In this document: piece after piece, positions 148 to 1,146 of the stretch
Layout of the letters: each line of letters starts with the position of its first letter
Numbering within the stretch: the stretch's first letter is position 1
Assembly (NCBI GenBank): GCA_029781035.1
Contig: JAKOXK010000070.1
Location: 113,169 to 177,168, forward strand
DNA: 64,000 bases
From: Armatimonadota bacterium
GTDB lineage: Bacteria > Armatimonadota > Fimbriimonadia > Fimbriimonadales > Fimbriimonadaceae
Direction: 5' to 3'
Made by a program: the position numbers and the translations under genes
Notes under the pieces: generated by a model
Database searches by the model: none
What the model saw: only the letters and a program-made list of their open reading frames with translations
What the model was told of the DNA's origin: nothing

Positions 148-1146
148 TCAGAGCTTGCTTGCGGCCTTCTTCACTTCGTCAACGAAGGCGTCCAACGGCA
201 TGTAACCGGGAATCCGGTCGATTTCGTCGCCCTTGGAATTGAAGAAGATGATCGTGGGGAAACCAGTGCAACCATACTTTGAGAAGAGGTCTGTCCTGAC
301 TTCACCGTTCACACGGCACAGGACGAAGTTCTTCGCGGCCTCTTTGAATTTCGGGGAGCTGAAAACTTCAGACTCCAATTTGTGACAGTAGGTTCACCAG
401 TCCGCATAGAAGTCAACGATCAGTCCCTTGTTGAACTGCTTCGCCGCGTTCTGCGCGTCCTCGAAGTTCGTCAGCCACTTTCCTGCGACCAGGTCGGACT
501 GAGACAGCTCCTTGGCGCCGGCAGGAGCCTTGAACGCAAAGAGGTCAGGGCTGGCGGAAAGGGAGGTGGCAGTAACGAGCAAGACCCTTGTCTGCGGATC
601 CTGGCCCGGAGCCGACATCGTGATCTCACCCTGCCTCAACATGTTGTCGGTCGAATCCGTGTAGAGCCGAAGAGTCATCTCTCCCTTCGGATCCACCTTG
701 ACGTCGATCGTGTTGAGCGTCTTGCCAGCACGGCTCTTAGTCCCTGCGTCCTTAGAGTACGTGTACTGGCTCGTCACATCTTTGAAGAAGGGCTTCCACA
801 CCGCGGTCTCCACATCGGAGAAGAGACCCATCAGTTCGGCCTCGGTCTGAGGCTTCCTATAGTAGGTCTTCTCCAACTTGTCGTAGATCGTGATGTTCTT
901 TCCGTCGGCGATGGTCAAGCTGGTCGGCGTCTCAACCGAAGCCTTGTCCGGCTTGGCCAGCGCGACGCTGTACTCCGCCGGTGACCCGCCGAGTGGCTGG
1001 ACTGTGTATTTGATGCTGATCGCCTGCGCGCCGCCTAGAGCCGACGCGAACGCCTTCAGCTTGGGCGAGGCGTCGCTGGCCATGGCAGCAGTGCACAGCA
1101 CCGCCGCCACGGCCAAGACCCCTGTTCCAAATGTCTTGATGTTCAT
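148..1146 (-). CDS. Exported LolA-like/thioredoxin fusion, candidate selenoprotein (Sec251)
   Basis: The reading frame is 332 residues if the UGA at 394-396 is read as an amino acid. Residues 1-23 are a signal peptide, and about 25-225 resemble the LolA/DUF2092 lipoprotein-carrier fold. Residues 230-332 are a thioredoxin domain of the DsbD-gamma kind, with FYADW, then UGA, T-Y-C254, and the cis-proline in GFPT near residue 297. The UGA replaces the first cysteine of W-C-x-x-C and everything after it is conserved thioredoxin sequence, so this is one gene, not two. A bacterial SECIS-like hairpin follows the UGA. A -10-like TAGAAT lies at 1183-1188 on this strand. The probable role is a periplasmic thiol (selenol) oxidoreductase. 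The alternative is a nonsense mutation or sequencing error in an ordinary Cys protein. No selA, selB, selC or selD gene is in the window. Confidence 0.75.
355..376 (-). promoter_or_regulatory. Candidate bacterial SECIS hairpin
   Basis: Starting 18 nt after the UGA, the RNA can fold as GGAG, bulged U, CUGAA, loop GUU, UUCAG, CUCC: nine base pairs, all perfect, with a single bulged U on the 5' side. The apical loop begins 28 nt after the UGA. In E. coli fdhF the SelB-binding element also has a bulged U and a GU in the loop, and bacterial SECIS loops lie roughly 16-37 nt after the UGA. The fit to that layout is seen in the sequence; SelB binding is inferred. Confidence 0.65.

Follow-up and report, generated by a model that had tools for sequence, protein, structure and literature searches.

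UxxC thioredoxins and selenoproteins of the thioredoxin-fold family PF13098 are listed in the accessible parts of a 2026 review (PMC13188914) and a 2022 review, in agreement with what an initial reading of the DNA letters (the sequence-only reading) had stated about such bacterial proteins. Several selenoprotein fusions are also described in the available text of the 2026 review (PMC13188914). The locus analysed here lies in a 64,000-nucleotide stretch of an Armatimonadota genome (the window). It is predicted to encode an exported protein combining a LolA-fold domain with a thioredoxin domain, in which codon 251, a UGA, is likely translated as selenocysteine (Sec, U) by the genome's own SelA, SelB, SelD and tRNA-Sec. 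The probability of this reading was put at about 0.9.

The frame starts with MNIK, reads through to DFYADW, crosses the in-frame UGA and resumes with TYCHKL. A further 81 codons lead to a second UGA, which serves as the stop of the same gene, so that UGA has not simply been reassigned. Codon 251 coincides with the column of the first active-site Cys of the thioredoxin CxxC. The frame, the complete thioredoxin domain with its cis-proline and the length of 332 residues had all been proposed from the letters, and each was found as described. The same reading made no mention of a LolA-fold domain, a probable signal peptide or a tandem Cys copy of the gene, and it placed too much weight on a hairpin downstream of the UGA.

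Features of the locus, with positions in the window
Feature	Position	Strand	Basis
Selenoprotein gene, ATG start, 332 residues, U at 251, stop UGA at 148-150	148..1146	-	frame reading
Predicted signal peptide, residues 1-23	1078..1146	-	by eye; pLDDT <50 for residues 1-23
LolA-fold / DUF2092 domain, residues 25-217	496..1074	-	
Thioredoxin-fold domain, DsbD-gamma-like, residues 222-332	151..483	-	
UGA codon 251, first active-site Cys column, likely selenocysteine	394..396	-	frame and homologue alignment
Cys254, second residue of the UxxC pair	385..387	-	frame and alignment
Pro297, cis-proline position, invariant in 43 aligned members	256..258	-	alignment
Candidate bacterial SECIS hairpin, 9 bp, bulged U, GUU loop at 364-366	355..376	-	

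With U read as C, the thioredoxin part (motif UTYC) matched PF13098 at 58.7 bits (cut-off 27), and the N-terminal part matched DUF2092 (PF09865) at 24.5 bits (cut-off 21.2). The latter reached 16.5 bits against LolA (PF03548), below its cut-off of 23.6; the fold is nevertheless shared with LolA. Both the LolA-type and the thioredoxin folds were visible in the predicted structure (mean pLDDT 87.8), and the thioredoxin domain matched the fold of the DsbD gamma domain at 27-30% identity. These fold matches were obtained with Foldseek, and VIA-align served as a second look at the same matches only, so the list is a selection of families and is not exhaustive. The protein is a predicted secreted fusion of a LolA/DUF2092-fold domain and a DsbD-gamma-like thioredoxin.

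The 250 residues preceding the UGA were used as a query against 61 genomes and gave matches in 43, the source genome included. Forty-three loci from 42 genomes were retained (the source genome twice; the partial G052 match and weaker second matches were set aside), and the codon following the 250-residue part was UGA at 10 and TGC or TGT at 33. The 43-row profile, whose first row has a superfluous final C (the terminal UGA included), was then searched against 113 genomes of the class, with matches ranked by E-value. Among the matches listed, 82 of the 113 genomes contributed 84 full-length members; the gene itself is counted, and incomplete rows (G087, G082 and G101, for example) are not. The column held UGA in 13 of these, Cys in 69 and neither in 2; UAA and UAG occurred in none of the 84. 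The placement of the UGA on the catalytic first cysteine, as originally claimed, is shared by 13 of 84 members among the matches listed, more than chance would give. All but one of the Cys forms listed read WCxxC (68), the exception being a CVWC that lacks the W (G086). SelA was found in 13 of 13 UGA genomes vs 39 of the 69 other genomes bearing the gene (Fisher 0.0014, kinship ignored, matches listed). When the same profile was run against 291 genomes of the phylum, matches at an E-value of 1e-40 or better came from 85 genomes, all in the same genus, family or order, with none outside the class at that threshold.

Downstream of the UGA, Cys254, Pro297 and Gly314 were invariant across the 43 aligned members, 10 of which are UGA forms. 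The 10 UGA frames remained open for 79-85 codons past the UGA, to their end. Degenerate sequence beyond the stop, which had been named as grounds for doubt, was not seen in the homologues, where the thioredoxin domain is kept whole. The UGA thus aligns with a homologue Cys with conserved sequence on both sides, a recognised mark of bacterial selenoproteins. One codon-level result points the other way: over 16 codons in the 10 UGA genes, differences per codon by codon position were 0.39/0.36/0.49 after the UGA and 0.38/0.23/0.55 before it, and this smaller third-position excess after the UGA counts against the Sec reading.

The fusion is also kept in two members in which both active-site cysteines are gone (L107 in G065, DPTS; L108 in G072, DATS; among the 84 listed), so the fold may serve a non-redox use there. 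Separately, four thioredoxin-only matches each contained one TGA, at L109:715-1101 (+) and L110:820-1149 (-), both in G015, L111:902-1243 (+, G044) and L112:881-1222 (+, G050). In these the UGA lies at the same first-Cys column, as W-UGA-PSC, -GWC, -GWC and -GSC, respectively, and two of the four have lipoprotein-like starts by eye.

The Sec machinery was present in the source assembly (3.42 Mb, 98 contigs, 96.3% complete). Genes for SelA (contig C82, 448 bits, cut-off 268), SelB (C10, 313 bits, cut-off 242) and SelD (C64, L113:402-1412, minus strand, 343 bits, cut-off 125) were accompanied by a tRNA-Sec with a UCA anticodon on C54. The UGA gene therefore co-occurs with genes for both Sec synthesis and Sec insertion, another mark of bacterial selenoproteins, and the machinery that the sequence-only reading had asked for is there in full. 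SelD is a gene known for carrying a Sec codon itself. The SelD frame here contains one in-frame UGA, in HCAGUASK, which makes it a second likely Sec codon of the genome; one TGA is likewise found in most of the SelD matches that exceed the cut-off among the 61 genomes. Across the class, 60 of 113 genomes had a SelA match above the cut-off. SelD exceeded its own in all 10 UGA genomes of the 61-genome set, and the SelB wing was found in nine, the tenth being G048 (88% complete); these SelB and SelD counts cover that set and leave aside G069, G097 and G099. Six genomes with no SelA match (G006, G009, G018, G026, G035 and G021) had an over-cut-off SelB-wing match, mostly in short frames (136-414 residues; 597 in G021). 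Such matches may be what is left of a Sec system that has disappeared, or the domain may have a different role there.

Relatives beyond the phylum were sought at the protein level, among 5.8 billion sequences, with 152 matches. Nine entries fetched from the best 30 of these were 238-272 residues long, had no thioredoxin Pfam domain and all terminated at DFYADW. The gene itself and that of G034 are among them; the other seven are judged by their protein ends. Two of the nine were named outer membrane lipoprotein-sorting protein by their sources and one hypothetical. Judged from their sequences, the nine resemble selenoproteins that end prematurely at the active site, so that the catalytic domain seems to have been lost from these public entries. 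Selenoprotein genes are described as widely misannotated in the accessible text of an earlier paper (PMC1088965). Taken together, the UGA column in 13 SelA-positive genomes, the machinery and the nine entries ending at FYADW make selenocysteine very likely, and the original proposal of a Sec residue gains support from the Sec genes and from homologues that have either Cys or UGA at the column.

The hairpin downstream of the UGA was examined as a candidate SECIS element. It comprises 9 bp with one bulged U and a GUU loop, with an energy of -9.0 kcal/mol, and is spaced 17 nt (stem) and 27 nt (loop) from the UGA. The bacterial model, as given in the accessible part of the 2026 review, has a loop of 3-9 nt with a G within the first two places, a stem of 4-16 bp, a distance of 16-37 nt from the UGA and an energy of -7.5 kcal/mol or lower (PMC13188914); the hairpin conforms to it. 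Among 250 synonymous recodings of the gene, 25% also conformed and 12.8% reached -9.0 kcal/mol or lower. With a quarter of recodings passing, the hairpin is weak evidence on its own: its SECIS-like geometry, as first described, is real, but not the evidential weight then attached to it. Eight of the 13 UGA genes passed the published model (recoding expectation 3.5) and five failed; 23 of 68 Cys genes passed it (G086, G065 and G072 left out). The difference gave a Fisher value of 0.06 (0.10 when G097 and G099, which are identical, are treated as one), and the chance of at least 7 of 12 UGA genes passing under the recoding expectation was 0.019. Under slightly different SECIS-like limits at the 43 loci, z-scores of UGA vs Cys genes gave a one-sided p of 0.028.

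Plain hairpin energy did not favour the 10 UGA genes over the 33 Cys genes (p 0.84). RNAalifold on the 10 UGA genes returned a single four-pair helix that includes the UGA, and no common downstream stem; the loops of their best stems lay 20-27 nt after the UGA, in differing registers. An Rfam scan of positions 200-500 at E-values up to 10 gave one chance snoRNA match (E 8.3). The hairpin was dropped as a stand-alone proof after these controls, the published model having little discriminating power. It is compatible with Sec insertion, with mild enrichment at most, and the case for selenocysteine rests instead on the alignment and the machinery.

If the UGA were a real stop, the gene would be truncated or decaying and a 250-residue LolA-fold protein would be left. 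Gene callers do terminate there, as the nine fetched entries attest, yet decay would not place an identical stop codon, UGA each time, at the first active-site Cys of 13 genomes, every one with SelA, and leave an intact thioredoxin domain behind it; this account is very improbable. A different outcome, compatible with the Sec reading, is that both the 250-residue protein and the 332-residue selenoprotein are made, in a ratio set by selenium supply. Sec insertion competes with release at UGA as a general matter, and by fold the part before the UGA holds one whole domain. Set against this, the sequence gives no sign that a short form is used, and we regard dual products as possible but doubtful.

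The two remaining alternatives are of almost negligible probability. Reading of the UGA as Trp or Cys, through a code change or a suppressor, found no point in its favour; the gene terminates at a UGA, the UCA tRNA detected was the tRNA-Sec itself (in a scan of five loci from the tRNA-Sec search), and relatives have Cys, not Trp, at the column. A sequencing or assembly error at 394-396 would have to reproduce by accident the UGA that 12 other genomes have at this column, which makes a base-calling error very unlikely.

A tandem copy of the gene, with the motif WCGPC, lies on the same strand of the source genome (L043 4120-5130), its listed frame beginning about 40 bases beyond the first base of the window. 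The N domains of the two genes share 57% identity. The thioredoxin domain of the UGA gene is as close to those of other genomes (49% identity to G007, 46% to G069) as to that of its own genus (44% to G003); by these comparisons the gene may have been duplicated and then changed fast, or the domain may have been swapped. A UGA copy and a Cys copy also occur together in G097, on separate contigs. Farther downstream of the tandem copy, on the same strand, are an ECF sigma factor (L043:2566-3195, minus), a 148-residue frame with no Pfam match (L043:2120-2566, minus) and a MucB/RseB-domain protein (L043:1155-2123, minus), an arrangement that resembles an envelope-stress set.

The third motif residue was Pro in none of the 13 UGA genes (Y in 7, F in 4, W in 1 and A in 1, among the matches listed), compared with 58 of 68 WCxxC genes (Fisher 3e-9, kinship ignored). 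A tree of the 84 rows without the motif columns, built by a quick method, required seven Sec/Cys changes, five of them forced by starred branches, and a single origin of the Sec form was rejected on this basis. The N-domain tree (11 changes, 4 forced) and the thioredoxin-domain tree (8 changes, 2 forced) were poorly resolved. By the 84-row tree, Sec and Cys were swapped repeatedly; the domain trees give no direction of gain or loss.

In the mechanism envisaged under the Sec reading, SelB would read UGA 251, aided by the hairpin, and the signal peptide would carry the protein across the inner membrane. There the Sec251-Cys254 pair would alternate between a selenenylsulfide and the selenol/thiol form and would reduce or reshuffle disulfide bonds in envelope proteins. 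The genome encodes a DsbD-type membrane protein, which could re-reduce the pair. Relatives with the LolA fold hold lipid-bearing clients; here the domain might place clients, or the surface of the membrane, within reach of the redox site. The adjacent CGPC copy would have a similar role, closer to that of a thioredoxin and independent of selenium. More speculatively, and with the odds clearly against the full picture, the protein may be a class-specific envelope selenium redox chaperone: the LolA-fold domain would hold lipid-bearing or hydrophobic clients, the tethered Sec thioredoxin would repair or shuffle their disulfides, the tandem CGPC copy would act as a selenium-free partner, and the repeated Sec/Cys exchange would be tied to loss of the CGPC proline.

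The terms DUF2092, LolA and Armatimonad had no occurrences in the accessible text of the 2026 review (PMC13188914), and Armatimonad had none in that of the 2022 review. Full-text literature, with few subscription journals, yielded no selenocysteine work on Fimbriimonas or Armatimonadota; selenoprotein with Armatimonadetes gave a Planctomycetes paper only, which in its available text names Armatimonadetes for other genes. In the same literature no selenoprotein with DUF2092 was found, thioredoxin with DUF2092 occurred only in a DUF paper, and selenoprotein with LolA and thioredoxin returned only papers unrelated by title. UxxC thioredoxin-like selenoproteins are thus already known, and the LolA-fold/thioredoxin fusion type was not met in the literature and accessible review text searched.

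Compared with described selenoproteins, the thioredoxin part showed weak matches to TsoB (NF045694; rhodanese/DsbD fusion-like; 59 of 805 bits) and Trx7/PDZ (NF041199; 29.5 of 300 bits), with which a thioredoxin-like part is shared; both scores lie far below the family cut-offs (805 and 300 bits). These two have other partner domains by name and, in the table of the 2026 review, the motifs UxxxxU and CxxU (PMC13188914). DsbD (NF001419) was matched by the C-terminal part only, at 68.3 of 330 bits, below its cut-off. On the other side of the fusion, the LolA, RseB and DUF2092 proteins share the fold, with the LolA sequence model not reached; LolA itself is not known to carry a thioredoxin domain. 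The locus therefore adds evidence of Sec use in an Armatimonadota class with no selenoprotein work in the literature searched. Its 13 Sec and 69 Cys forms (matches listed), with the Sec/Cys tandem pair, offer a natural series on the benefit of selenium to an exported thioredoxin. The predicted family brings a domain pairing absent from the selenoprotein tables and papers searched, as far as their accessible text goes. Its closest described counterpart is the PF13098 UxxC thiol:disulfide interchange selenoprotein, which by its table description has the same thioredoxin fold and a UGA at the first active-site position, and from which the present protein differs in the LolA/DUF2092-fold domain fused in front (PMC13188914).
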